In this document: positions 24,454 through 37,599 of the stretch, piece after piece
Layout: every line of letters starts with the position of its first letter
Position numbering within the stretch: position 1 is the first letter of the stretch
Translations under genes and position numbers: made by a program
Notes under the pieces: model-generated
The model's input: the letters and a program-made list of their open reading frames with translations, nothing else
Databases searched by the model: none
Told to the model about the DNA's origin: nothing
Source of the DNA: Myxococcales bacterium
Lineage (GTDB): Bacteria; Lernaellota; Lernaellaia; Lernaellales; Lernaellaceae
Assembly (NCBI GenBank): GCA_012517325.1
Contig: JAAYVF010000027.1
Location: forward strand, 1-64,000
Direction: 5' to 3'
DNA length: 64,000 nt

Positions 24454-24962
24454 GGCGTTCCGCCTTCGTGTTGCCGCAGGGCATCGGCTTTCTTTTGGTA
24501 TTGAGCGAAAATATTTTTCAACCGCTCCTTCTCCCGTAACAGCTCGCCGCGCGAGTCGGTTTGCTGTTTCAGCAATTTTTCCTGTTGTTGAATGCGCTCG
24601 GTCAGCTCGTGCTTGCGCTGGAGCGTTTGGGAATCGCGGCCTTGCTGCATTTCCGACAAATCCTGGAGAACTTCCTTTTGCGTGTGCAACGATTGCAGGA
24701 TTTGCTGGTTCTGGTCGATCGCGAGAGTAAGCTTTGTTTCCTCGCGGCTCAATTCGTCCAGGCGGTCCGCGATGATTTCGGCCTTTTCCTGGATGTCCTC
24801 GGGTCCGTCCAGCGGACGGATGACGATGGCCGCGTCGATGCTCTTCAGCCGGCGCCAGGCGTCGGCCGCGTCCGCCGGATCGTCACTTGCCCAGACCACT
24901 CCCGCGGCCGCGAGCAGCGCGGCGGTCAGCAACGCCAGCACGGCGACCCGGGAGGCGGACAT
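24450..24962 (-). CDS. Exported coiled-coil protein
   Basis: A 170-residue protein with a signal peptide (cut near VWA-SDD). Almost the whole remainder, about 55-165, is heptad-rich helix full of Glu, Gln, Lys and Leu (for example LSREETKLTLAIDQNQQILQ). It should be a periplasmic coiled coil. Its start overlaps the regulator stop by one base and its stop overlaps the barrel start by four, so the three are translationally coupled. It may be the periplasmic partner of the barrel. Confidence 0.75.
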   Translation of the reverse strand: MSASRVAVLALLTAALLAAAGVVWASDDPADAADAWRRLKSIDAAIVIRPLDGPEDIQEKAEIIADRLDELSREETKLTLAIDQNQQILQSLHTQKEVLQDLSEMQQGRDSQTLQRKHELTERIQQQEKLLKQQTDSRGELLREKERLKNIFAQYQKKADALRQHEGGTP

Positions 24963-26341
24963 CAGTCGGTGACTCCGAATTTTTCCAGCTTGTAGCGAAA
25001 ACGGTTCCGGTCGATGCCCAGCATTTTGGCGGCTTTGGCCTTGATCCGGCCGGATCGTTCGTAGCCGTGCAGGATCAAGCGCCGCTCGAAGTTCTCCATT
25101 TCCTCGTCGAAATTCACGTCCGAATCGGGCAGGCAGACGTACGAGGCGGAGGGGGGCAAAAACGTCGGCGGCAGGTGGGACAGATTGATCGGCGCGCCGG
25201 CCGCCAGGATGGTGGCCCGCTCGATGACGTTACGCAATTCGCGGACGTTTCCCGGCCAGTTGTAGTCCATCAGCGAATCCATCGCGCGCGGCGTCAGGCC
25301 CGGCGCCTGCCGTTCCTGCCGCTGGGCTTGCCGTTTGATGAAGGCCTCCACCAACAAGGGGATGTCCTCCTTGCGGCTGCGCAACGGCGGCAACTCCATC
25401 GTGAAAATGTTGAGCCGGTAGAACAGATCCTCGCGGAACTCGCCGTCCCGGATGGCCTTCGGCAGGTTTTTGTTGGTCGCGGAAATGATGCGGATGTCCA
25501 CCTTGAGGGTCCGCGAACCGCCGACCCGCTCGAATTCCTTTTCTTGAATCGCGCGCAGCAGCTTGGTTTGGAACGGCACCGGGATCTCGCCCACTTCATC
25601 GAGAAAAAAGGTGCCCTGATCCGCCAGCTCGAAGCGCCCGAGCTTGCGTTCGATCGCGCCGGTGAACGCGCCCTTCTCGTGGCCGAACAGTTCGCTTTCC
25701 AGCACGCCGCCGGCGTAGGTCGCGCAATGGACGCTGACGAACGGCCCCTTGGCCCGGCCGCTCTTGGCGTGAATGGCGCGCGCGACCAGTTCCTTGCCGG
25801 TGCCGCTTTCACCCAGGATCAGCACCGTGGCGTCGGTCGGCGCGACCTTGTCGATCGTTTCAAACACCCGCTGCATGGGCTGGCTTTTGCCGATGATTTC
25901 GCCCAGGCCGTGTCGATAGGCGTCATCCGCCTCCAGGGTGCTGACCCGCGCGTCCAGGCGCTCCATCCGCCGGGCGAGTTCCCGCTGCGCCACGGCCTTC
26001 TGGAATTTGACCTGCAACTCGCCGTTGTCGAGCGGTTTGGTGATGAAATCGAAGGCGCCGATTTTCATCGCTTCCACCGCCGCCTCGACGCTGCCGTAGG
26101 CCGTCACCACGATGACGACCACCTCCGGCCACCGTTCCCGCGCCTGGCGCAGCAACTGCATGCCGTCCACTTTCGGCATTTTCAAGTCGGTGACGAGAAC
26201 GTCGACGGGCCGTTCCTCCAGAAACCGCAAGGCCTGTGCGCCGTCGTAGACCGCGTGGGCCGCGTGGCCGCGCCGCTCGACGAGCGCGCAGAGCGTATCG
26301 GTTGCCGTTTTGTTGTCGTCCGCGATCAGAAATTCGGCCAT
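24962..26341 (-). CDS. NtrC-family sigma54-dependent response regulator
   Basis: A 459-residue activator. Receiver domain: Asp52 in VTDLKMPKVDG, Lys102 in FITKP. AAA+ domain: Walker A GESGTGKE at 177-184, the sigma54-contact loop GAFTGA at 224-229 and Walker B LDEVGE. A C-terminal Fis-type helix-turn-helix includes KAAKMLGIDRNRFRYKLEKFG. All catalytic features are intact, so it should activate -24/-12 promoters once phosphorylated. The cognate kinase lies 13 bases upstream. Strong sigma54 promoter candidates occur at 28059-28074 and 11473-11487. Confidence 0.95.
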   Translation of the reverse strand: MAEFLIADDNKTATDTLCALVERRGHAAHAVYDGAQALRFLEERPVDVLVTDLKMPKVDGMQLLRQARERWPEVVVIVVTAYGSVEAAVEAMKIGAFDFITKPLDNGELQVKFQKAVAQRELARRMERLDARVSTLEADDAYRHGLGEIIGKSQPMQRVFETIDKVAPTDATVLILGESGTGKELVARAIHAKSGRAKGPFVSVHCATYAGGVLESELFGHEKGAFTGAIERKLGRFELADQGTFFLDEVGEIPVPFQTKLLRAIQEKEFERVGGSRTLKVDIRIISATNKNLPKAIRDGEFREDLFYRLNIFTMELPPLRSRKEDIPLLVEAFIKRQAQRQERQAPGLTPRAMDSLMDYNWPGNVRELRNVIERATILAAGAPINLSHLPPTFLPPSASYVCLPDSDVNFDEEMENFERRLILHGYERSGRIKAKAAKMLGIDRNRFRYKLEKFGVTD

Positions 26342-26354
26342 GATTGCCCGCCTT

Positions 26355-26888
26355 CTAGCCCTGGCTTGCCCGAGGCAAATGGATGGTGAAGCACGCCCCC
26401 GCCTGGGGAAGGTTGTCGACGGAAATGGTTCCGCCGTGGTTTTTGACGATCAAAGCCACGTTGGCGAGTCCGAGGCCGGAGCCGGTCACCTTCGTGGTGA
26501 AAAACGGTTCGAACAGTCGCGGCAGGTTTTCGGCGGAAATACCCGGTCCCGTGTCCTGGATCACGAAGTCGACGCCCCCGTCGCCGGCGGCTGGTTGAAT
26601 GGTCAGAGCGACCCGGCCGCCGTCATCGCAGGCTTCGACGGCGTTGAGCAAGAGGTTGAGCAACGATTGTTCCATCCGTTCGCGGTCCATCCGGACCAGC
26701 GGCAACCCCGGCGACGAGTGCGTCCTGATTTCCACGTTTTTTTCGCGCGCCGCCGCCCCCGCCAGTTCGACGGCGGTCGCGGCCAGTTCGACGGGATCGA
26801 CGTCGTCGACGACCAGCGTGATCGGGCGGGAGTAGGTCAGGAACTCGGTCAAAAAGCGGTTGAGCTTGCCGATTTCGTGCCGTCGCGC
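26355..26888 (-). pseudogene. Sensor histidine kinase, C-terminal part (ATPase domain) after a frameshift
   Basis: This frame holds the rest of the kinase begun at 27796. It continues the dimerisation helix (HEIGKLNRFLTEFLTYSRPI) and has the N box (NLLLNAVEACDD), G1 (QDTGPGIS), F box ([14 protein letters not shown]) and G2 (GSGLGLANVALI). It has no plausible start of its own at the proper place. The two frames join near 26875-26890, where one missing base would restore a single protein. Either the gene is recently broken, the reading is shifted during expression, or the sequence has an error. It ends 13 bases before the cognate regulator gene. Confidence 0.8.
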
Positions 26889-27796
26889 GGTTCCTGCAGT
26901 TCCTCGCCGAGCAGAGTGATGAGCAATTTGATGGAGTTCAGGGGATTGCGGATTTCGTGCGCCACGCTGGCCGACATTTCCTTCAACTTGGCGTCGCGCG
27001 CCTGGACCAGACGGGCCATTTCGTTGAGCGAGTTCGCCAACACCTCCAATTCGAGAATCGAGGGAATCGGCACGCGAGCCTGGTAATCGCCGTTGCCGAT
27101 CTGCTCCGCCGTTCGCGCCATGTGACGGATCGGCCTGGTCAACGTGCGGGCCAGCAGTAGGGCCACCAGAAAAGCGATGATCGCGCCGCCGGCGGCGGTC
27201 CAGTACAAACGCGATTGCATGCGATTGATCAACTCGATTTCCGTGGCGCCGGCGTTCACCCCGACGATGGCGAACAAGCGTCCCTGATCGTCCATGACCG
27301 GCGCGTAGGCCGAGATGAAAAGCTGGTCGTTGGCGGCGGGGTAACTGCCGGTGCTGGCCGGCCGCCCTTGTTGAAGGCTGGTCAGGAAATCCTTCTTGAA
27401 ATGACCGAGCGCCGAGGGGGAACCGATGAGCCGGTCGAGGCGCGGATCCACCAGCAGGGAGCCGTCCGGTTGAAAGATGAAAACGTCTTCGACGCCGGTC
27501 GCTTCGCGGATTTCGGAAAGTTTTTCTTTGAGGCGCAGCACCATGCGCGTTTGATCGTCCCCGGTTTTGATCAGCGCCAGCCGCTCGTAGGGCGCGTTGC
27601 GGGCGGCGATTTTGGCGATGTCCTTGAGTTTTCTGCCGATTTCGTTTTCCAGGTGCGTCCGGGCCGTGGAGATGAAAGGCACGCCGAAAATCAGGATGAC
27701 CGCAAGGATGAGCAAAAGGTAGAAAAATACCTGGGTCGCGAAGATGGTGCGGTTGCTTTTCAGCTTTTTCATTCCGTCGATTCCATACGATTCCAT
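26849..27796 (-). pseudogene. Sensor histidine kinase, N-terminal part (dCache-like sensor, HAMP, H box) before a frameshift
   Basis: About 315 residues: membrane helix (FFYLLLILAVILIFGVPF), extracytoplasmic sensor domain (VEDVFIFQPDGSLLVDPRL and ISAYAPVMDDQGRLFAIVGV, Cache-like), second helix, HAMP linker (TRPIRHMARTAEQIGNGDY) and H box (SASVAHEIRNPLNSIKLL). The frame then leaves the family with KSASSTAF and stops, while the family sequence continues in another frame. The ATG at 27796 or 27772 is the likely start. Together the two parts make a normal NtrB-class kinase of about 480 residues for the regulator downstream. Confidence 0.8.
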
Positions 27797-27819
27797 CCGG
27801 ATTTCCAGAGAGAGACAAA

Positions 27820-27834
27820 GCAAAGATTATACCA
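27820..27834 (-). promoter_or_regulatory. Candidate promoter of the kinase-regulator operon (extended -10, or sigma54-like)
   Basis: On the minus strand the sequence reads TGGTATAATCTTTGC. It contains a perfect TATAAT with an extended TGG, and no good -35. The same bases also show GG-N10-GC spacing as in sigma54 promoters, though with only partial consensus. It sits 24 bases upstream of the ATG at 27796. Confidence 0.4.
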
Positions 27835-28058: not shown

Positions 28059-28074
28059 TGGCATGGTTTTTGCC
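28059..28074 (+). promoter_or_regulatory. Strong candidate sigma54 (-24/-12) promoter for the KAS III/sulfotransferase genes
   Basis: TGGCATGGTTTTTGCC matches the sigma54 consensus TGGCACG-N4-TTGC at all but one defined position. The GG (28060-28061) and GC (28072-28073) are exactly 10 bases apart. It lies 55 bases before the start codon at 28129, leaving a short leader with a GAAGAAGGG ribosome site. Confidence 0.7.
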
Positions 28075-28128
28075 GTATTGCCGTGTTGGACGCGGGCAAA
28101 TTTTTTCAGGGGAAGAAGGGAACTTAGA

Positions 28129-29154
28129 ATGGCCTTTCCGGAACTGTACTTATCCAAGCCGGCGATCGTTCTCCCCGCGAAAAAAATCGATAACGACGAG
28201 CTGCTGGACCTGATCCGCATCAACTACCGCGGCGCGAAAGGCGATTACCCAGTGCTCGAAAAGATCGTCGAAAAAATCTTCGAACAATGCGGTTCCGAAA
28301 CCCGCTACATCGAAACCGATCCGACGGTGCGCGTGGCCGAGTATGCCATCAAAGCCGCGCAAGCCTGCCTCGCGGCCAATGGCCTTAACGCCGGCAACCT
28401 GGATTTGCTGATCAACGGCAGTATCGCCCGCGAGTACTTCGAACCCTCCACCGCCATGGAGATCGCCGCCGGCCTGGGCATCGAGGAGATTCATGCCTTC
28501 GATGTCACCAGCGCCTGCGCCGGCTCGCTGGAAGCCGTGCACATCGCCGGCGCCTATTTCAATCTGCACGATCATTTTCAGAACGCCCTGGTCTGCTCCG
28601 CCGAATTGACGCGGAATTTTCTGAGCTACGCCATCCAATCCGTGCCGGAACTGGTCGAGAAGGCCGCCGGCCTGACGATCGGCAACGCCGCCGCGGCCTG
28701 GGCGATCAGCCGCCGGCCTTTCCCGGGCGGTTGTCTGCGTATCCGCGCGGCACGGAATTACAGCCTGCCGCGGCATTGGCATCTCTGCACGACGCCGATC
28801 GACGGCACTTTCACCTCGATGGCCGGCGAACTGTTCAAGCTCAGCGTCCACGTTGCCCCCGAACTGCGCCGCGTTTTGGCCGGCATCGGCTGGTCGGCCG
28901 CGGACGTCGATCATTTCGTCTTCCACCAACCGAGCGAAAAAATGGTCCAGGCCGTGATGTACGACCTCGAAGCCGCGCCGGAAAAGGCGGTCTACAGCCA
29001 TCATCTTTACGGCAACACCTCCAGCACCACGGTAGCGTTGGCCTTGCATCAATTGCTCAAAGAGCGGGATATTTTGAACGGTCAAAAACTTTTGCTTTCG
29101 ACCGCCGCTTCCGGTTTCACCATGGTGACCATCGCGGGCGAATGGGTGGAGTGA
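28129..29154 (+). CDS. 3-oxoacyl-ACP synthase III (FabH)-like thiolase-fold enzyme
   Basis: A 341-residue condensing-enzyme homologue. The catalytic triad is intact: Cys130 in DVTSACAGSLEA, His266 in DHFVFHQPSEKM, Asn296 in HLYGNTSSTTVALAL. It should form a C-C or ester bond from an acyl thioester. It is not in a fatty-acid synthesis operon but heads a sigma54-promoted group with a sulfotransferase, suggesting a specialised lipid or secondary metabolite. The glycine loop around residue 185 (TIGNAAAAWAIS) differs from the usual GDGAGA. The ATG at 28129 is preferred over the upstream in-frame ATG at 28051, which overlaps the promoter. Confidence 0.88.
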   Translation: MAFPELYLSKPAIVLPAKKIDNDELLDLIRINYRGAKGDYPVLEKIVEKIFEQCGSETRYIETDPTVRVAEYAIKAAQACLAANGLNAGNLDLLINGSIAREYFEPSTAMEIAAGLGIEEIHAFDVTSACAGSLEAVHIAGAYFNLHDHFQNALVCSAELTRNFLSYAIQSVPELVEKAAGLTIGNAAAAWAISRRPFPGGCLRIRAARNYSLPRHWHLCTTPIDGTFTSMAGELFKLSVHVAPELRRVLAGIGWSAADVDHFVFHQPSEKMVQAVMYDLEAAPEKAVYSHHLYGNTSSTTVALALHQLLKERDILNGQKLLLSTAASGFTMVTIAGEWVE

Positions 29155-29158
29155 TGAA

Positions 29159-30277
29159 ATGATGAAATACATCAATTTATACCGCTTGATCCTGCGAACC
29201 TTCGGCTTTCACCTGCGGCCGGTGGGAACCTTTTGCCTGTTGCAGATCCATCGCCTGATCAACGGCGCGACCCGCGCCTTGGATCACCTGTTTTTCCCCG
29301 AATTCCGCCGGCAACCGCTCGACCGGCCGATTTTCATTCTGGGCAATCCGCGCGGCGGCACGACCTTCGTCCATCGTTTTCTGCTCAACACCGATCGCCT
29401 GTGCGCCTTCGAATTGTGGGAAATGCTGTTTCCGGCCATCACCGCGCGCAAAATCTTCGGGCGGTTCATTCACCGGTTCGCGCCGCTGTCGCCGGCCCGC
29501 TATCACAGTTCCGACGCCCACGAAACCGGCTTGCGCGACGTCGAAACCGACGACGCCATGGCTTTCTTCCACTTCGTGGACGGCGGTTTTCTCTGGTCGT
29601 ATTTCCTGGCCTGGGAAGATACCTGGGGCAGCCGGTTGAGTCGGGACTATTTCGAGCTGGACGACGAGCCGGAAGAACGGAAACAGCGGCTGTTCCGCTA
29701 CCTGGAAGGTTGTTGGCGGCGCAACCTCATGGCCAAGAGCAAGAGCCGGATCATCGTGAAGAGCAGCATTTTCACCCTGCGGGTCAAGACCCTGCTGAAA
29801 CGTTACCCGGATTGCAAGATCATCTACTGCGTGCGCGACCCGCTGGAGACAATCCCGTCCGGCATGTCGTTGCTGACCGGCGTGCTGGAGCAATCCTACG
29901 ACATGTTCCATTCCACCTCGCCCGACGTGCGCCAGCGGTATCTGGAAAACCTCTACCAGGGCTCCTGTGCCATGTACCGGACCTTCCATGATCTGCTGCA
30001 AAGCGGCGTCATTCCCGAAAGGAATCTGAAAATCGTCCCCTATCCGCGGCTCATGAACGACCTCGAGCGAACCATGGCCGAGTTGGTGGATTTTCTGGAG
30101 ATCGAACCGAGCGCGCGGTTCACCGAAAAACTGCTCGAGCAGGCCGAGAAACAACGCCATCACAAAAGCAGGCACGAATACTCCCTCGCCAAATTCGGCT
30201 TGGACGAGGCGCGCCTTCGCCGGGATCTGGCGTTCGTCTACCAAACCTACGGCCTGGCGGGAGGATCCGAATCATGA
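29159..30277 (+). CDS. PAPS-dependent sulfotransferase family protein
   Basis: A 372-residue sulfotransferase-fold protein. The 5'-phosphosulfate loop is NPRGGTTF at 63-70, and the 3'-phosphate-binding segment is KIIYCVRDPLETIPSGMSLL near 223-242. Such enzymes move sulfate from PAPS to hydroxyl or amine groups of lipids, sugars or small molecules. The first 45 residues are basic and hydrophobic and may associate with the membrane. It starts four bases after the KAS III stop and overlaps the next gene by four bases. Acceptor unknown; the context suggests an acyl-derived product. Confidence 0.85.
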   Translation: MMKYINLYRLILRTFGFHLRPVGTFCLLQIHRLINGATRALDHLFFPEFRRQPLDRPIFILGNPRGGTTFVHRFLLNTDRLCAFELWEMLFPAITARKIFGRFIHRFAPLSPARYHSSDAHETGLRDVETDDAMAFFHFVDGGFLWSYFLAWEDTWGSRLSRDYFELDDEPEERKQRLFRYLEGCWRRNLMAKSKSRIIVKSSIFTLRVKTLLKRYPDCKIIYCVRDPLETIPSGMSLLTGVLEQSYDMFHSTSPDVRQRYLENLYQGSCAMYRTFHDLLQSGVIPERNLKIVPYPRLMNDLERTMAELVDFLEIEPSARFTEKLLEQAEKQRHHKSRHEYSLAKFGLDEARLRRDLAFVYQTYGLAGGSES

Positions 30278-31131
30278 AAACAAAAGTCGGGCTCCTGAGT
30301 GTTTTGGTTTTCTTTCTGGCTTTCCTGATGCCCTCGTTCGGTTGCTCCGGCGACGACGACGACGAAAATGATTCGGCAACGGACGACGACAGCGACAACA
30401 CCGGCGACGACGACGATAACGACGATAACGACAACAACGACAACAACGACAATGACGACAACGATGACAATGACGATTCGACCTTCGATCCGAGTGTCAT
30501 CCTCGGCCGGACCTATTCCCTGGATATCCCACTGTCCGCTTGGACGGTGCCGGCCGGCGTCGGCGACATCATCGGGTATTACGTCCCGATCCTGTTGTTC
30601 GAGCCGCGCAGCGCCGACGACGGCGTGCTCGATCTCCTGGCGACCGTGGGCGCCGAGGAAAAAACCGTCGTGCAGGACGAGTGCAACCTCACGACGGACT
30701 TTGCCGACAGCGTCTTGAACGACGACGGTTCCTTTTCGTTCGGCCCGCAAGACTTTGCGTTGCGCATCGAGGGCGTGAGCGCCGGTCTGCACCAGGCCTA
30801 CGGTTCGGGCACTTTTCTCGCGGACGGTTCCGGCTTCGATAACGGAGTACTCGGCGGGCTGTTGGACGCGCGGGAATTGCTGGATTTCCTGCTCTACGGG
30901 CTCGACGAAATCTGCCTGGTGACGGCGATCTTCGGCGCGCCGTGCGTAGCCTGTCCGGCGGACGGCGAAGTATATTGCGTGGAAATCAAGGCCGAAGGTT
31001 TTTCGGCGGCGACGGTTTCCGGCTTGTCCTTGACCGAAATCGGGTCGGACGATCTCGGTCCGGAATGCGACGATGACGACGACACCGCCGCCGCCGACTC
31101 GGTATCGGCAAACGAAAGCACCTTGTTTTAG
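30274..31131 (+). CDS. Asp/Asn-linker lipoprotein, function unknown
   Basis: A 285-residue lipoprotein. The signal peptide ends PSFGC (Cys24, Ser at +2), with an Asp/Asn tract at about residues 27-69. A compact, probably beta-rich domain follows (RTYSLDIPLSAWTVPAGVGD) with four cysteines (ECNLT, EICLV, CVACPADGEVYC). Ends with a second Asp run. Overlaps the sulfotransferase by four bases, so it belongs to the same operon. No family recognised. Confidence 0.7.
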   Translation: MKTKVGLLSVLVFFLAFLMPSFGCSGDDDDENDSATDDDSDNTGDDDDNDDNDNNDNNDNDDNDDNDDSTFDPSVILGRTYSLDIPLSAWTVPAGVGDIIGYYVPILLFEPRSADDGVLDLLATVGAEEKTVVQDECNLTTDFADSVLNDDGSFSFGPQDFALRIEGVSAGLHQAYGSGTFLADGSGFDNGVLGGLLDARELLDFLLYGLDEICLVTAIFGAPCVACPADGEVYCVEIKAEGFSAATVSGLSLTEIGSDDLGPECDDDDDTAAADSVSANESTLF

Positions 31132-31176
31132 CAGGGTGTGGAAAAACACCCGGCGTGCGATCCAGGGATGGATCGC

Positions 31177-31275
31177 CATTTTCGGTAACTTCCGAAGTTG
31201 CCGAAAATGAAGCGAAATAAAAACCACGCTTTTTATTGAGCGTAGTTGAAAAAGGCCAGGACGACCTTTTTCAAC
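31177..31275. repeat. Pair of intergenic palindromes (REP-like element)
   Basis: 31177-31209 is an inverted repeat with arms CATTTTCGGTAACTTC and GAAGTTGCCGAAAATG. 31245-31275 is another, with arms GTTGAAAAAGG and CCTTTTTCAAC. The element fills the 179-base space between two lipoprotein genes. It could be a dispersed repeat or an operon-internal attenuating structure; no T-run follows it. Confidence 0.5.
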
Positions 31276-31310
31276 AGCCTGTTAGAGAGGAAAAAAAGGA
31301 GTTCACGACC

Positions 31311-32858
31311 ATGGAAAGACATTCTCTTTTGTGGCTGCTGCTCCTGATTTTACTGACCGGGTTTTTCTTCCCCGCCTGCGGCAACGATGATGACGATGAC
31401 AACGATTCCGGCGGCGACGACGACAACGGCACGGATGACGATGACGACAACAACGACGACAACAACGATGATGATAATAACGACGACGACGACAACGATG
31501 ACGACAATGACGATTCGGCCGCCGGCGGCGATTTCACGGCGACGGTGACCGCAAACCCGATTTGCGGCATCTCCTGCATCGTCACCTGGACCACCTCCGA
31601 AGCGGCTTCCTCCTGGGTGGAATTCGGCCCGGCGGACGGCGATTACGCGCTGCTCATTGGCACGGATGATTTGACGACCGATCACCGCGTCGTGGTGGTG
31701 GGCATGCACGCCTCCACCGATTACAAACTGCTGGCGGTTTCGGAAACCGCGTCGAAAACGAGGCTGGAATCGCAAGAGTTGTCATTCTCGGCCGCCTCGC
31801 TGCCTTATGTCTGGCTGGCCGGCGATCTGGATGTGTACGAGGAAGGCCGGACGAACGACGGCTGGACGCTCACGAATCTCTCGGTCCAGACCATGGAAGG
31901 CCAGTTGGCCGTCGCCATGTACGATATGGAGGGCGAGCCGGTCTGGTATTACGTGCCGGCGAACTTCGGCGCCCGCATCGACCTGGTGGCGAGCTGGGTG
32001 GACGACCAATACGTGCTGGTCGGCCCGTCGGTGCAGTCCGGCAAGCGCCCCTTCGAGATCGACCTGGAAGGCAACAAGGTCTGGGAAGGCCCGGTCGAAA
32101 CCGGCAGCGGCATGACCGATGACGGCGCCATGCACCACGTGCTGCACAAACTGACCAACGGCGATTACATTACGACCTACAACGATGTGCGGTCGAACGT
32201 CGCCGGCGACGATATCGTCGAATTCGACGCCGACCTCACTACGACCTGGAGTTGGAGCTTCTGGGATCACCTGACGCCCAAAGCGCAAGCGATCGGCCGG
32301 GACTGGACCCACGTCAACACCGTGCTGGTCGATTTCGCTGACGACATTGTGTACGTCAATTCGTTCGCGTTGAGCCAGTTTTTCAAGATCGACCGGACCA
32401 GCGGCGAGATCCTCTGGACCTTCGGCGAGGGCGGCGACTTCACGGCCGACCCCGACGCCACCTATCCCTGGTACGGCGGCGGCCACGGGATCGACGCGCT
32501 CGGGGACAACCAGTTCCTGTTCTATGACAACGGCCTGGTCGGCCGCAATTTCTCGCGCGCGATCATCTACCAGTTGGACGAGAACACCATGGAGTCGAGC
32601 ATCATCTGGGAATACAAAGGCGCCGGCTCGGACGCCTGGTACAACATGTCGCTGGGCGACGCCGACCGGCTGGACAACGGCAATATCCTGATCGTCGCCG
32701 GCAACGGCACGCAAAACCAGTCGGGAAGTCGGTTCATCGAGGTCACACCGGACGGCGAAAAGGTGTGGCAGATGTGGCTCTACAGCAACAACCAGACGAA
32801 AGTCAGTTCCTATCAGGCGGATCGCATCCCGGCTCTGGCCGAGGCGTTGGACCGCTAA
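31311..32858 (+). CDS. Arylsulfotransferase (ASST)-like lipoprotein with Asp/Asn linker
   Basis: A 515-residue lipoprotein: lipobox FFFPAC (Cys23, Gly at +2), Asp/Asn linker 26-69, a fibronectin-like domain about 74-165, then a beta-propeller of the arylsulfate sulfotransferase type. Candidate catalytic histidines are His275/His276 (AMHHVLHKLTNGD), His334 (DWTHVNTV) and His392 (GGGHGIDAL). Bacterial ASST enzymes transfer sulfate between phenols without PAPS through a sulfo-histidine. An AAGGAG site precedes the ATG at 31311. It follows a PAPS-type sulfotransferase cluster, which makes a sulfation role more likely. Activity is inferred, since some family members lack it. Confidence 0.75.
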   Translation: MERHSLLWLLLLILLTGFFFPACGNDDDDDNDSGGDDDNGTDDDDDNNDDNNDDDNNDDDDNDDDNDDSAAGGDFTATVTANPICGISCIVTWTTSEAASSWVEFGPADGDYALLIGTDDLTTDHRVVVVGMHASTDYKLLAVSETASKTRLESQELSFSAASLPYVWLAGDLDVYEEGRTNDGWTLTNLSVQTMEGQLAVAMYDMEGEPVWYYVPANFGARIDLVASWVDDQYVLVGPSVQSGKRPFEIDLEGNKVWEGPVETGSGMTDDGAMHHVLHKLTNGDYITTYNDVRSNVAGDDIVEFDADLTTTWSWSFWDHLTPKAQAIGRDWTHVNTVLVDFADDIVYVNSFALSQFFKIDRTSGEILWTFGEGGDFTADPDATYPWYGGGHGIDALGDNQFLFYDNGLVGRNFSRAIIYQLDENTMESSIIWEYKGAGSDAWYNMSLGDADRLDNGNILIVAGNGTQNQSGSRFIEVTPDGEKVWQMWLYSNNQTKVSSYQADRIPALAEALDR

Positions 32859-33167: not shown

Positions 33168-33968
33168 ATGAAAAGCACGGGTTTCTGGTTGCTGTTGGCG
33201 TTGACGGTGTTTTCGGCGTTCCTGCTCGTCGCGGCCTGCGGCGACGACGATGACGACGACAACGATACCTCTGATGATGACACGGCCGACGACGATGTGG
33301 CCGACGATGATGCAGCCGACGATGATGCGGCGGACGACGACGCGGCGGATGACGATTCCGGCGACGACGATGATGACGACAACGACGTCGTCGAACTTTT
33401 CTCCGAGGATTTTGAAAGCTACACGGCCGGCGATCCGCTGGGGACGCCGTGGGTGGTGACCCTGACCGGCGAAAGCTATTCGACCATTTTCGAGGCGGTT
33501 GATACCAGCTACGGCAACTGCCTGGAAAACGTCGGCAGCATCCTGGCCGGCGAGAGCGCCAAGGCGGTTCTGGGCTACACCGGCGCGGCGGACGATCTGG
33601 CCGTGACATTCGATTACTGGGTCGACACCGATGCCTACGGCCGTTTCTGGCTCTCGAACGACGGCGGCACCACCGTGGGAGCCGGCGTGGCCACCATCCC
33701 CGGCGGGGCGTTGTACGCCAATACCGCGGGCGGCTTCGGCCAGGCTTGCGGTTCCGTGATTTCCGAGGAATGGAACACGATTTCGATTCTCGTGAACTAT
33801 GCCGCCGGTACGTATGACGTCGAGATCAACGGCAATATCGAATGCGAGGACGTGGACGCCGGCCTCGGCGCCGATGTCACCTACAACGCCATCGTCCTGG
33901 ACGACAGCATCTTGGTTTCCGAAGGCGGCTACTACTACTTCGACAACATTCTCGGCAAAACCCAATAA
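33168..33968 (+). CDS. Asp-linker lipoprotein with lectin-like (LamG/jelly-roll) domain
   Basis: A 266-residue lipoprotein. Lipobox LLVAAC (Cys24, Gly at +2), then an acidic linker in which DDDAA units repeat (about 25-72). The remaining domain starts with ELFSEDFESYTAGDPLGTPW and ends YYYFDNILGKTQ. This is the usual opening and closing of concanavalin-like jelly-roll domains found in surface proteins. A GGGGAGG ribosome site precedes the ATG. Carbohydrate or surface binding is possible but inferred. Confidence 0.68.
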   Translation: MKSTGFWLLLALTVFSAFLLVAACGDDDDDDNDTSDDDTADDDVADDDAADDDAADDDAADDDSGDDDDDDNDVVELFSEDFESYTAGDPLGTPWVVTLTGESYSTIFEAVDTSYGNCLENVGSILAGESAKAVLGYTGAADDLAVTFDYWVDTDAYGRFWLSNDGGTTVGAGVATIPGGALYANTAGGFGQACGSVISEEWNTISILVNYAAGTYDVEINGNIECEDVDAGLGADVTYNAIVLDDSILVSEGGYYYFDNILGKTQ

Positions 33969-34037: not shown

Positions 34038-35393
34038 TTACATCACCAGGCGGATGTCCCGCTTCAGGCGCTCCTTGCCCAGGATGCCGATGATGCCGTC
34101 GTCGTAGTTGGAGGCGGCGATCTTCTTCGCGTCCTCCTCGACGTGGATCATCGAGGTTTCGATGCCGTAGGAATTGAGGATTTTTTTGATCTGCCCGTAG
34201 TTTTCCTCGAGCGATTCCTTGACCGACAGGAACCCGCGCTCGGCCGCCTTGGCCCGCTGCCAGAAGGCCACCGGGTTCATTTCGAAGAACTGCACGTCGT
34301 TGATGTCGGGCTCGATCAGCACGATGTCGCCCAGGAAGTTCGGATCCTGCGCGAAGGCGCGCAGCGATTGGTGCAAACGGTGGTGCAGCAGCATCCGGAA
34401 GACCTGGTTGATCACCGCCAGCATGCCGCCCGCCGCGAGGTGCGGCTTGTCGGTGACGTACTGGTCGATCTCCTTGTACCACTGCACGACGAGCCGGTTT
34501 TCGAGCGGCCGGAACGGGTTGTAGCAGATGATCAGGCTCGCCCCGTGCTCGACGGCCACGTCGATGTTGGCCGTTTCGGCGACCGCGCCGTCGACGTAAT
34601 CGACGCCCTTGATCCGGGCCGGTTTGTAGAAGCCGGGCAGCGCCGACGAGGCCTGGATCGCCTCGCTGATCGACAGTTCGTTGTTTTCGTCGTGGCCGAA
34701 GACGACGCGCTCGCCGGTGTCCAAGCGCGTCGCGGTGATGTACAGCTCTTTCTTCTGGCGGTGGTAGAGGTCGGCGAAGTCGTTTTTGAAGTGCGCCGCC
34801 TCGAGGTTGTGGCGAATGTATTTTTCGAGGCGGTTGTTGTCGAAGATGCCCGAGGGGATGTAGTCGAAGAATTTCGGCAACGCCCGGCTGGCCGAAGCGA
34901 TGCGCACCAAAATCTTGATGACCGCGTCGAGGTTCTTGTAGCTGGGCGAGGTGACGAAATCGCCGAGGGTGGCCAGGAAGCGCTTGTCGGGCGACAGCAA
35001 CAGGCTGAGGAAGTTGATTCCGAAACGCGGCAGCGACGTGCCCAATTCGAAGGCCAGTTGCAGCGGTTTCTGGACGAATTCCATGACGTTGGGGTTGTAG
35101 AAATCGAGCGGCTTGAGCTGCGACAGGCGGTCGGATTTGCCGTCGAGGCTTTTAAGAATTTCTTCCGGCGTCAGGCCGATGGACAGCGGGCAGGCGATGA
35201 TGGCGCCCGCCGACAGGCCGACGTAGGTGTCGAAATCGGTCACGTCGCGGTTGATCATCAGGTCGGACAACGCCTTGAGGCCGCCGATTTTGTAGGTGCC
35301 GCCGCTGACCGCGCCGCCGGCCAGGACCAAGGCGATCTTCGCGTTTTTCTTGCGGATATTCAGGTCGCTCTTTTGTACGATCGTGATGCCCAC
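34038..35393 (-). CDS. Patatin-like phospholipase
   Basis: About 451 residues. The glycine-rich oxyanion loop is LAGGAVSGG at 24-32, the nucleophile motif is GLSAG with Ser61, and the dyad Asp is in YVDGAV (Asp268). Patatins are cytoplasmic or secreted lipid acyl hydrolases using a Ser-Asp dyad. No signal peptide is seen. The start is taken as GTG at 35393 because GGGAGG lies five bases before it; the longer open frame upstream covers the promoter. Divergent from the acyl-CoA synthetase, so released fatty acids could be activated by its product. Confidence 0.87.
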   Translation of the reverse strand: MGITIVQKSDLNIRKKNAKIALVLAGGAVSGGTYKIGGLKALSDLMINRDVTDFDTYVGLSAGAIIACPLSIGLTPEEILKSLDGKSDRLSQLKPLDFYNPNVMEFVQKPLQLAFELGTSLPRFGINFLSLLLSPDKRFLATLGDFVTSPSYKNLDAVIKILVRIASASRALPKFFDYIPSGIFDNNRLEKYIRHNLEAAHFKNDFADLYHRQKKELYITATRLDTGERVVFGHDENNELSISEAIQASSALPGFYKPARIKGVDYVDGAVAETANIDVAVEHGASLIICYNPFRPLENRLVVQWYKEIDQYVTDKPHLAAGGMLAVINQVFRMLLHHRLHQSLRAFAQDPNFLGDIVLIEPDINDVQFFEMNPVAFWQRAKAAERGFLSVKESLEENYGQIKKILNSYGIETSMIHVEEDAKKIAASNYDDGIIGILGKERLKRDIRLVM

Positions 35394-35480
35394 TGGAGCC
35401 TCCCGGTTGATCGCCCGAACCTTCCGCTGGCAATTAGGCAATCGCGGTCCGCACTTGAACCGCGTCAAGATATTGTGCGG

Positions 35481-35510
35481 AGTGTAGCGAGATGCCACAA
35501 TCCGTGTCAA
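35481..35510 (-). promoter_or_regulatory. Sigma70-type promoter of the patatin gene
   Basis: On the minus strand TTGACA (35505-35510) and TACACT (35481-35486) are 18 bases apart. The GTG start lies about 90 bases downstream. The divergent spacer 35394-35802 holds this and the plus-strand promoter and no gene. Confidence 0.65.
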
Positions 35511-35710
35511 CTTCAAAATAACGCGATCGACGTTTTCGCCGGCCGACAACCTCTCTGAATATCGGTTCAAACCGGGCAAACCTCAAATTGTTTGTTTCTT
35601 GAACCTTTTGCGAAGCGGAAAATTCTTTTCCGGGACCCGGTTTCAACGCAAAAAAACCGTGCCGAACGCTTCATTTTTCGACACTTTTTCATTCGAACGG
35701 CGGTGGGGGA

Positions 35711-35740
35711 TTGACGCCGCGCGGACCGGGGGAGTATACA
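35711..35740 (+). promoter_or_regulatory. Sigma70-type promoter of the acyl-CoA synthetase gene
   Basis: TTGACG at 35711-35716 and TATACA at 35735-35740 are 18 bases apart. The ATG at 35803 lies about 60 bases downstream with an AGGGGTG ribosome site. Confidence 0.65.
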
Positions 35741-35802
35741 AATTCGACAACCTTTTTCCTTTTTGTAGTGTACCAAAACATCATTCGCAGGGGTGCAACA
35801 TC

Positions 35803-37599
35803 ATGGACCAGGAAAATAATCTTGCCCAAATGTGGAAGAATCGTGTCGCCAAGTACGGCGACAAGGTTTATCTGCGCGCCAAACGCGACGGCGCGTGGAA
35901 ATCCTATACCTTCCGCGACGTCGACCGCATGGTCACCGATATCGCGCTGGGCATGTTGTCGCTGGGGTTCAAACGGGGCGACCGCATCTCGCTGCTGTCG
36001 GAAAACCGGCCGTACTGGACGATGTTCGACCTGGCCACCCAGAGCCTCGGCGGCATCCTGGCCACGATCTACGCCACCAACACCCCCGAGCAGTGCGCCT
36101 ATATCGTCAACAACTCCGAGTCGCGCTTCGTGGCGCTGTCGAACAACAACCAGCTCAACAAGCTGTTCGACAAGAAGGTCAGCATCCCGCTCGTCGAAAA
36201 GATCATCATCTTCGATCCGATCGACGGCATCACCGACAAGGACCCCCGCGTCCTGACCGTCAACAAGCTGATGGAACTGGGCCGTTCCTATCCGCATCCC
36301 GAGGAACTCGACAAGCTGATCGCCGCGTCCACCTTCGACGACGTGGCGACGCTGATCTACACCTCGGGCACCACCGGCGATCCCAAGGGCGTCATGCTGA
36401 CCCACGGCAATTTCTACTCGAACGTCCAGGGCGCCGCGGAAGTCATGCCCGTCTCGCCCGAAGAATCGTTCCTCAGCTTCCTGCCGTTGTCGCACAGCCT
36501 CGAACGGATGGCCGGCCACTTCACGCCGATGTACATCGGCGCGACCGTCAGCTTCGCCGAGTCGATCGACGCCATCCGCCAGAACCTGCAGGAGATCAAA
36601 CCCTCGGCGATGGTCAGCGTGCCGCGCATCTACGAAAAGTTCCACGCGGCGATCCTTGACAATGTTTCGAAAAGCGCGCCCCTCAAGCAGAAGCTCTTTC
36701 ATTGGGCGCTGGGCGTCGGCCGCGCCGCCGGCAAGTACATCCTGGCCAACAAAACGGTGCCGCCGCTGCTCGCCCTGCAGCACACCCTCGCCGACAAGCT
36801 GGTCTTCGCGAAAATCAAGGCCAACCTCGGCGGCAACCTGCGCTTCGCCATCAGCGGCGGCGCGCCCCTGTCGCCCGAGTTGTTCGAATTCTTCTTCGCC
36901 ATGGGCGTGACGATCTACGAGGGCTACGGCCTGACCGAAACCACGCCGGTCGTCACCTGCGCCTCGCCAGGCAACATCCGCACCGGCACGGTCGGCAGGG
37001 TGCTGCCGGGCGTGACGGTGAAGATCGCCGCGGACGGCGAAATTTTGGTGAAGGGCCCGAACGTGATGAAGGGCTACTACAAGATGCCCGAGGCGACCGC
37101 CGAGGCCATCGTCGACGGCTGGTTCCACACCGGCGACATCGGCGAACTCGACGCCGACAGCTTCCTGAAGATCACCGACCGCAAGAAGGACATCATCGTC
37201 ACCGCTGGCGGCAAGAACGTGGCGCCGCAAAACATCGAAAACATGCTCAAGATGGAGCGGTTCATCGAGCAGGTGAACATCATCGGCGACCGGCGCCGCT
37301 ACCTGACGGCGATCATCGTGCCGGATTTCGCCGAACTGGAAAAATGGGCTCGGGAGAAGGGCCTGCAGTACGCCGGCCGGAAGGAACTGGTCAAGCTTCC
37401 CGAGGTCCACAAGCTGATCGAGGACGCCATCAAGAAAAACAACTCGGAACTGGCCAAGTACGAAACCATCAAGAAGTTCCACCTGACCGACATTCAGTTC
37501 TCGCAGGAAAACGACATGCTGACCCCGACCCTCAAGGTCAAACGCAAGAAGGTCAACGCCTACTACGCCAAGGAAATCGAGGCGATGTACGAGGAATAG
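35803..37599 (+). CDS. Long-chain fatty acid-CoA ligase (AMP-forming)
   Basis: A 598-residue ANL-superfamily enzyme. The P-loop motif is LIYTSGTTGDPKGVMLTH, followed by the A5-type GYGLTETTPV motif. The ATP/ribose segment reads GWFHTGDIGELD, with TDRKKDIIVTAGGKNVAPQNIE beyond it. The long form and C-terminus match FadD15/FAA1-like long-chain acyl-CoA synthetases. It activates fatty acids to acyl-CoA on the cytoplasmic side of the membrane. The ATG at 35803 has a ribosome site; the longer open frame upstream spans the promoter. Confidence 0.93.
   Translation: MDQENNLAQMWKNRVAKYGDKVYLRAKRDGAWKSYTFRDVDRMVTDIALGMLSLGFKRGDRISLLSENRPYWTMFDLATQSLGGILATIYATNTPEQCAYIVNNSESRFVALSNNNQLNKLFDKKVSIPLVEKIIIFDPIDGITDKDPRVLTVNKLMELGRSYPHPEELDKLIAASTFDDVATLIYTSGTTGDPKGVMLTHGNFYSNVQGAAEVMPVSPEESFLSFLPLSHSLERMAGHFTPMYIGATVSFAESIDAIRQNLQEIKPSAMVSVPRIYEKFHAAILDNVSKSAPLKQKLFHWALGVGRAAGKYILANKTVPPLLALQHTLADKLVFAKIKANLGGNLRFAISGGAPLSPELFEFFFAMGVTIYEGYGLTETTPVVTCASPGNIRTGTVGRVLPGVTVKIAADGEILVKGPNVMKGYYKMPEATAEAIVDGWFHTGDIGELDADSFLKITDRKKDIIVTAGGKNVAPQNIENMLKMERFIEQVNIIGDRRRYLTAIIVPDFAELEKWAREKGLQYAGRKELVKLPEVHKLIEDAIKKNNSELAKYETIKKFHLTDIQFSQENDMLTPTLKVKRKKVNAYYAKEIEAMYEE

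Follow-up and report, generated by a model that had tools for sequence, protein, structure and literature searches.

What might be the joint role of a ketosynthase, a sulfotransferase and an arylsulfate sulfotransferase (ASST)-like protein whose genes lie side by side? The question is raised by a cluster in the window, the 64,000-nucleotide stretch analysed here (positions 1 to 64,000 of contig JAAYVF010000027.1, Myxococcales bacterium). A preliminary description, made from the sequence alone, had reported four genes there, and direct reading of the sequence together with Pfam and NCBIfam searches confirms their places, all on the plus strand: a β-ketoacyl-ACP synthase III (KAS III)-like ketosynthase, a sulfotransferase of the type that uses 3'-phosphoadenosine 5'-phosphosulfate (PAPS), an acidic Cys-anchored protein and an ASST-like protein. 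Here, we propose that the first two form a two-enzyme cassette making a sulfated acyl-derived molecule and that the linked ASST gene makes of it a sulfate relay, a reading to which we give an even chance.

The ketosynthase and its sulfotransferase partner

The ketosynthase (341 amino acids; 28129..29154, plus strand) matches the Pfam KAS III families firmly at its C-terminus (PF08541) and weakly at its N-terminus, and has no chalcone/stilbene synthase match in Pfam or NCBIfam. Its Cys-His-Asn triad (C130, H266 and N296) is intact, as had been reported, and is kept in all ten rows of the family alignment. Profile, model fold and a glutamate together point to an OleA-like enzyme, and a tree leans the same way. 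When a profile of ten family members was compared with solved structures, OleA (3row) was the best match (E=1.2e-32). An AlphaFold2 model of moderate confidence (predicted local distance difference test, pLDDT, 76) was searched with Foldseek, where the root-mean-square deviations are large (6-8 Å) and the ranking alone was used: 27 of the first 28 matches carry an OleA title, the exception being 3fk5, a Xanthomonas oryzae protein titled FabH, and ordinary FabHs rank after them. E105 of the ketosynthase aligns with E117 of OleA, and the mutant OleA chains E117D and E117Q show Asp and Gln in the same column. This Glu is found in 10/10 family rows and in only 1/28 KAS III controls taken from other genomes, where Phe is the usual residue at this position. 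The passages of PMC4578411 that deal with these enzymes describe the catalytic Glu as the base that OleA and PpyS use when they condense their substrates head to head, with PpyS making alpha-pyrones, its E105A variant yielding no photopyrone, and MxnB and CorB being without this residue (PMC4578411).

In a 54-row tree, the ketosynthase family, three divergent members and one partial member form a single clade (support 100/99), and the family falls on the OleA side, with OleA and the L027 sequence (97/92), the exact place of OleA being unsure as a long branch represented by a fragment only. The partial member (L138, at a locus edge and 39% identical) was kept in the tree and left out of the count of pairs. 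PRK09258 is the best-scoring NCBIfam family, but at 127.9 bits against an equivalog cut-off of 285, and for this reason we file the ketosynthase as OleA-like and not as OleA.

Directly downstream lies a Sulfotransfer_3 family sulfotransferase (371 amino acids; 29162..30277, plus strand), whose earlier assignment to the PAPS type is upheld by PF13469 (73.6 bits, cut-off 27) and accompanied by a PF00685 match (46.9 bits). It carries a phosphate loop, GNPRGGTT, and a second motif, VRDPLETIPSG, the two PAPS motifs of such enzymes; an alignment of 11 members shows G61, N62, P63, R64, G66, T67 and T68, along with Y222, R225, D226, P227 and S233, to be invariant. These 11 sulfotransferases, 61-77% identical, define our core set, namely the window and ten loci found by a contig scan with the sulfotransferase alignment, all from uncultured 'Deltaproteobacteria'/Myxococcota (L061 is a contig of genome G002, and L066 one of G006). 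The ketosynthase gene is directly upstream of the sulfotransferase gene in 10 of the 11 core loci; L068 has no ketosynthase within the locus stretch compared. Within the window's own class, two of six relatives searched have the pair. A check of gene-neighbourhood conservation thus comes out positive, with the pair recurring and an ASST linked in part of the loci.

Sulfate genes and the proposed relay

The ASST-like gene (31311..32858, plus strand) encodes a propeller-family protein with what looks by eye like a lipobox-like leader, and its PF05935 match (94.2 bits, cut-off 24.2) agrees with the preliminary description, which had placed such a protein after the acidic one. Is its nearness to the pair a matter of chance? 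An ASST gene lies less than 5 kb from the pair in five of the 11 core loci (the window, L061, L064, L067 and L070), in four arrangements: after the pair, immediately before it, divergent on the far side of an APS (adenosine 5'-phosphosulfate) kinase gene, and before it with a small protein in between. By Poisson statistics that treat genomes as independent, 0.043 such loci are expected (P about 1e-9, or about 1e-7 if one of the two window-family loci is dropped from the observed count). PF05935 is present in all 11 core genomes, with 22 matches in total, and in three of the five linked loci the linked ASST is the sole match of its genome. APS kinase (PF01583), found in 10/11 core genomes, is the PAPS-making enzyme, and its genes adjoin the pair in three loci (0.028 expected, P about 3e-6), directly upstream in L066/G006 and L067 and, in L069, as a CysN-APS kinase fusion which lies with CysD divergent from the pair; this placement is indirect evidence suggesting that the sulfotransferase uses PAPS. 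At least one of the two, ASST or APS kinase, adjoins the pair in 7/11 core loci, and this linkage gives real support to the earlier idea of a sulfated product. Among the other neighbours, a TauE/SafE exporter follows the sulfotransferase in L062 and a DUF1329/LolA-like protein follows it in L063, both in keeping with the relay proposed below; a radical SAM protein precedes the ketosynthase in L062, a TetR regulator lies ahead of the pair in L063, and the neighbours scanned in L065 and L068 include nothing telling.

When a profile of the five linked ASSTs was aligned with the Escherichia coli enzyme (3elq), H276, H334, N336 and H392 of the window protein corresponded to H252, H356, N358 and H436, and these residues are kept in 5/5 linked ASSTs. 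The preliminary description had named an unconserved neighbourhood, missing sigma54 dependence and loss of the family's histidines as observations that would speak against it; since the neighbourhood is conserved and all three histidines, with the Asn, are kept in the window protein, two of the three tests came out in its favour. The relevant passages of PMC13426309 list H252, H356, N358, R374 and H436 as the ASST active site (PMC13426309). R374, which coordinates the sulfuryl group in the E. coli enzyme and lies outside the Pfam PF05935 definition, is retained in L064 and L070 and is Tyr in L067, Trp in L061 and Phe (F352) in the window, and because of F352 we call the window protein ASST-like. 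An AlphaFold2 model of this protein (pLDDT 69) was too poor to use, its Foldseek list consisting of unrelated propellers.

Beyond the core set, the sulfotransferase is found at E <= 1e-60 in 50 of the 377 genomes in the phylum to which G069 belongs, three of them core and 47 belonging to a wider family that is 36-42% identical where measured. Loci from 40 of these 47 genomes were examined with larger flanks (for G247, one of its three matches), with weak KAS profile matches in L137 and L140 left out of the ketosynthase counts. Three of the 40 (L101, L114 and L117) have a Glu-type ketosynthase that is 39-46% identical to that of the window: L114 has the gene order ASST-ketosynthase-sulfotransferase, and in the other two the ketosynthase is near the sulfotransferase with an ASST (L101) or with the only APS kinase of the 40 loci (L117). 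A second KAS III clade (eight tree rows, 100/100), with LIPD or VPD where the family has FEP, is close to the sulfotransferase in another eight (L118, L122, L124, L127, L131, L133, L134 and L135), and in L130 a FabH-like protein adjoins it. Members of this clade adjoin the wider sulfotransferases in both gene orders (for example at 2400-3413 in L131 and 741-2129 in L127). An earlier tblastn search of 27 wider loci with 1.5 kb flanks had found no KAS III and was superseded by the larger flanks and the profile, which found some. Pairing of a KAS III with a sulfotransferase therefore occurs repeatedly and involves two types of KAS III, the second of which may offer an alternative path to a sulfated compound.

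How might these proteins act together? Starting from the families, catalytic residues and gene linkage described above, we infer a product and its fate. The OleA/PpyS-type ketosynthase would join two acyl thioesters head to head, with Glu taking the alpha proton, to give a beta-keto product or a 4-hydroxy-alpha-pyrone. The sulfotransferase would then move the sulfate of PAPS, a compound both synthesised and consumed in the cytoplasm, onto an enolic or hydroxyl oxygen of that product in the same compartment. Stepping from linkage to relay, in loci with a linked ASST gene, the window's among them, this product would, once sulfated, cross the inner membrane and donate its sulfate to the exported ASST for transfer to an acceptor in the envelope. 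Of the signal-controlled pathway first suggested, then, the route from ketosynthase and PAPS sulfotransferase to a linked ASST is supported, through its conserved neighbourhood and kept histidines, and the signal control is not. A broader idea, that several Gram-negative lineages evolved apart from Streptomyces a membrane-crossing carrier of activated sulfate (a beta-keto lipid or pyrone made by the OleA/PpyS-type ketosynthase, charged from PAPS and discharged by the ASST on envelope molecules), is one that we hold as tentative and short of probable.

Several observations weigh against the relay. OleA itself makes a beta-keto acid and not a pyrone, and the evidence here fits either product. 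The window cluster has no exporter gene. An ASST is in the fetched stretch of only four of the 40 wider loci (L101, L114, L119 and L140). PF05935 matches are abundant in some genomes of that phylum (23 to 32 in G112, G285, G387 and others), and because ASSTs are so numerous in many wider-family genomes (up to 32), linkage there is less telling. In the window, the ASST-like gene starts 179 bp past the end of the acidic-protein gene, and the interval 31131-31275 holds a terminator-like site and, packed into some 150 bp, five inverted repeats, one of them with arms of 16 nt (94%) and another with perfect arms of 11 nt. These features are compatible with the ASST gene being a separate transcription unit. 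In addition, the replacement of R374 by Phe (window) and by Trp (L061) may mean a different donor chemistry. The same residues, with the poor model and its uninformative fold search, leave room for the ASST-like propeller having a role other than sulfuryl transfer, such as binding or scaffolding, in a cluster that makes a sulfated lipid only; the equivalents of H252, H356, N358 and H436 in 5/5 linked proteins and a PF05935 score of 94 bits argue otherwise, and we consider such a role improbable.

Also counting against the relay are the six of 11 core loci in which no ASST adjoins the pair, and these fit with the sulfated lipid or pyrone being an end product (a membrane lipid, signal or antibiotic) whose sulfate the ASST trims or redistributes, or to which it is a mere neighbour. 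PpyS-type products, described as signals or antibiotics in the passages concerning them, lend this some appeal, but it sits poorly with an ASST linkage far above chance that comes in four arrangements and is repeated in L114, and we think it rather unlikely. Terminal-alkene formation by CurM/Ols proceeds by sulfation and then loss of sulfate and CO2, and here too sulfation could activate a beta-keto or hydroxy product for loss of both to give a hydrocarbon, with the ASST unrelated. The ketosynthase does resemble OleA, and the portion of PMC4578411 devoted to OleA has its pathway yielding an olefin (PMC4578411), but neither a thioesterase nor OleB, OleC or OleD was recognised among the Pfam-scanned neighbours (whole genomes were not searched for OleBCD) and the ASST linkage would be left unexplained; we consider this outcome very improbable. 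We keep the sulfate relay as our proposal.

Neighbouring genes and regulation

The acidic protein (30274..31131, plus strand), predicted to be exported and Cys-anchored with a poly-Asp linker, is encoded by a gene that does overlap the sulfotransferase gene by four bases (ATGA), as first noted. It has zero Pfam or NCBIfam matches and, among the loci compared, a counterpart (57% identical) in G002/L061 only. A Cys-anchored leader with a poly-Asp/Asn linker is seen at 30274-31131, 31311-31540, 33168-33400 and many other places in the window's genome (G000), and it is mostly through this leader that an ASST query gives 97 matches there (91 in G001); it looks like a lipoprotein spacer used across the whole lineage. 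About 1-5 kb downstream of the cluster, at 34038-37599, are genes for a patatin-like protein and a long-chain acyl-CoA ligase (top match FadD11, below cut-off), a possible acyl-CoA supply.

Is the cluster under sigma54 control? The candidate sigma54-like -24/-12 site, TGGCATGGTTTTTGCC (28059..28074, plus strand), can be read directly from the sequence with the exact GG-N10-GC spacing that had been reported, and ends 54 nt before the ketosynthase ATG at 28129. It has two mismatches to the consensus TGGCACN5TTGCW, and the window has 16 sites with two mismatches where 10.5 are expected per 64 kb, or 18 with the same core and at most two mismatches where about 11.4 are expected. Within 300 bp upstream of the pair, G002 has no site at four or fewer mismatches and G006 has one, with four. 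The window's genome does have rpoN (PF04552 on contig C97), and an NtrC-type response regulator (24962..26341, minus strand; Response_reg, Sigma54_activat at 234.9 bits, HTH_8) starts 1.7 kb from TGGCATGGTTTTTGCC with its GAFTGA intact, bearing out the earlier observation, but an NtrC gene beside the pair is not conserved among the core loci. The only other NtrC-like gene is in L063, at a distance of 5.4 kb from the pair, and was treated as coincidence.

Between the regulator gene and TGGCATGGTTTTTGCC lies a histidine kinase gene that the preliminary description overlooked (about 26355..27823, minus strand). It is frameshifted in the assembly near 26850-26930, the open reading frame at 26849-27823 coding for the sensor, HAMP and one half of HisKA and another frame (26358-26930) for HATPase_c. 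The break may be a fault of the assembly or a true loss. A second sigma54-like site on the upstream side of this gene, TGGTATAATCTTTGCT (27819-27834, minus strand), scores at chance level and was set aside. The label 'sigma54-promoted' is therefore not supported: the site is common by chance and, at a comparable score, has no counterpart upstream of the pair in G002 or G006. We reject sigma54 control as a defining feature; with rpoN present in the genome, such control of the window operon is conceivable but doubtful. 'Signal-controlled' goes the same way, given a regulator gene that is not conserved beside the pair and a cognate kinase that is frameshifted in the assembly.

Significance and known systems

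Many bacteria have exported ASSTs, and the passages of PMC13426309 on their physiology state that natural donors and acceptors are mostly not known, nor are the roles of most of these enzymes (PMC13426309). By bringing together the enzyme that uses PAPS, a candidate synthase of the carrier and an ASST, this recurring cluster makes the question of the physiological sulfate donor tractable with few enzymes and a single mass spectrum. If the relay is real, it would supply the missing natural donor for at least some ASSTs, extend sulfate relays beyond the making of antibiotics and give OleA/PpyS-type ketosynthases a new role.

Each component has a known counterpart. The ketosynthase shares its Cys-His-Asn triad and Glu117 equivalent with OleA from Xanthomonas campestris, its best profile and fold match, but is only about 21-22% identical to it in fold alignments, is paired with a sulfotransferase and has no recognised OleBCD nearby. 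The PpyS/PyrS photopyrone and pseudopyronine synthases have the same catalytic Glu, a likeness drawn from their description and not from sequence, and the relevant passages do not mention a sulfotransferase partner (PMC4578411). With the E. coli CFT073 ASST (3elq), the window protein shares PF05935 and the H252/H356/N358/H436 equivalents, and differs in having Phe for R374, a lipobox-like leader and a poly-Asp linker.

What of the cluster as a whole? A two-step sulfation relay for caprazamycin was reportedly described by Tang et al. in 2013, the content of which we take from citing papers. In the relevant passages of these, a triketide pyrone made by the type III polyketide synthase Cpz6 is sulfated with PAPS by Cpz8, and the ASST Cpz4 passes the sulfate to the antibiotic (PMC6731281, PMC4924298), the relay running through a 4-hydroxy-α-pyrone in Streptomyces sp. 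MK730-62F2 (PMC6731281, PMC4924298, PMC13426309). The likeness is that of a thiolase-fold ketosynthase, a PAPS sulfotransferase and a PAPS-independent ASST-type enzyme, the last two encoded in one cluster in both cases. The Cpz genes, however, form part of an antibiotic cluster and their acceptor is known, whereas in the window there is no cluster of that sort and the envelope is of the Gram-negative type, and Cpz6 is a type III polyketide synthase whereas the window enzyme is predicted to be an OleA/PpyS-like KAS III. As the two ketosynthases come from different families, the window cluster would resemble the Cpz relay in how it works but is not classed with it. The preliminary description knew of no described system with this set, a statement to be amended since Cpz6/Cpz8/Cpz4 is a functional parallel. 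In the portions of the open-licence literature consulted, we found no account of an OleA/KAS III-type ketosynthase with a sulfotransferase and an ASST. By analogy, the cluster may best be read as a separate, Gram-negative version of a relay of the Cpz6/Cpz8/Cpz4 kind, with an OleA/PpyS-type ketosynthase in first place.

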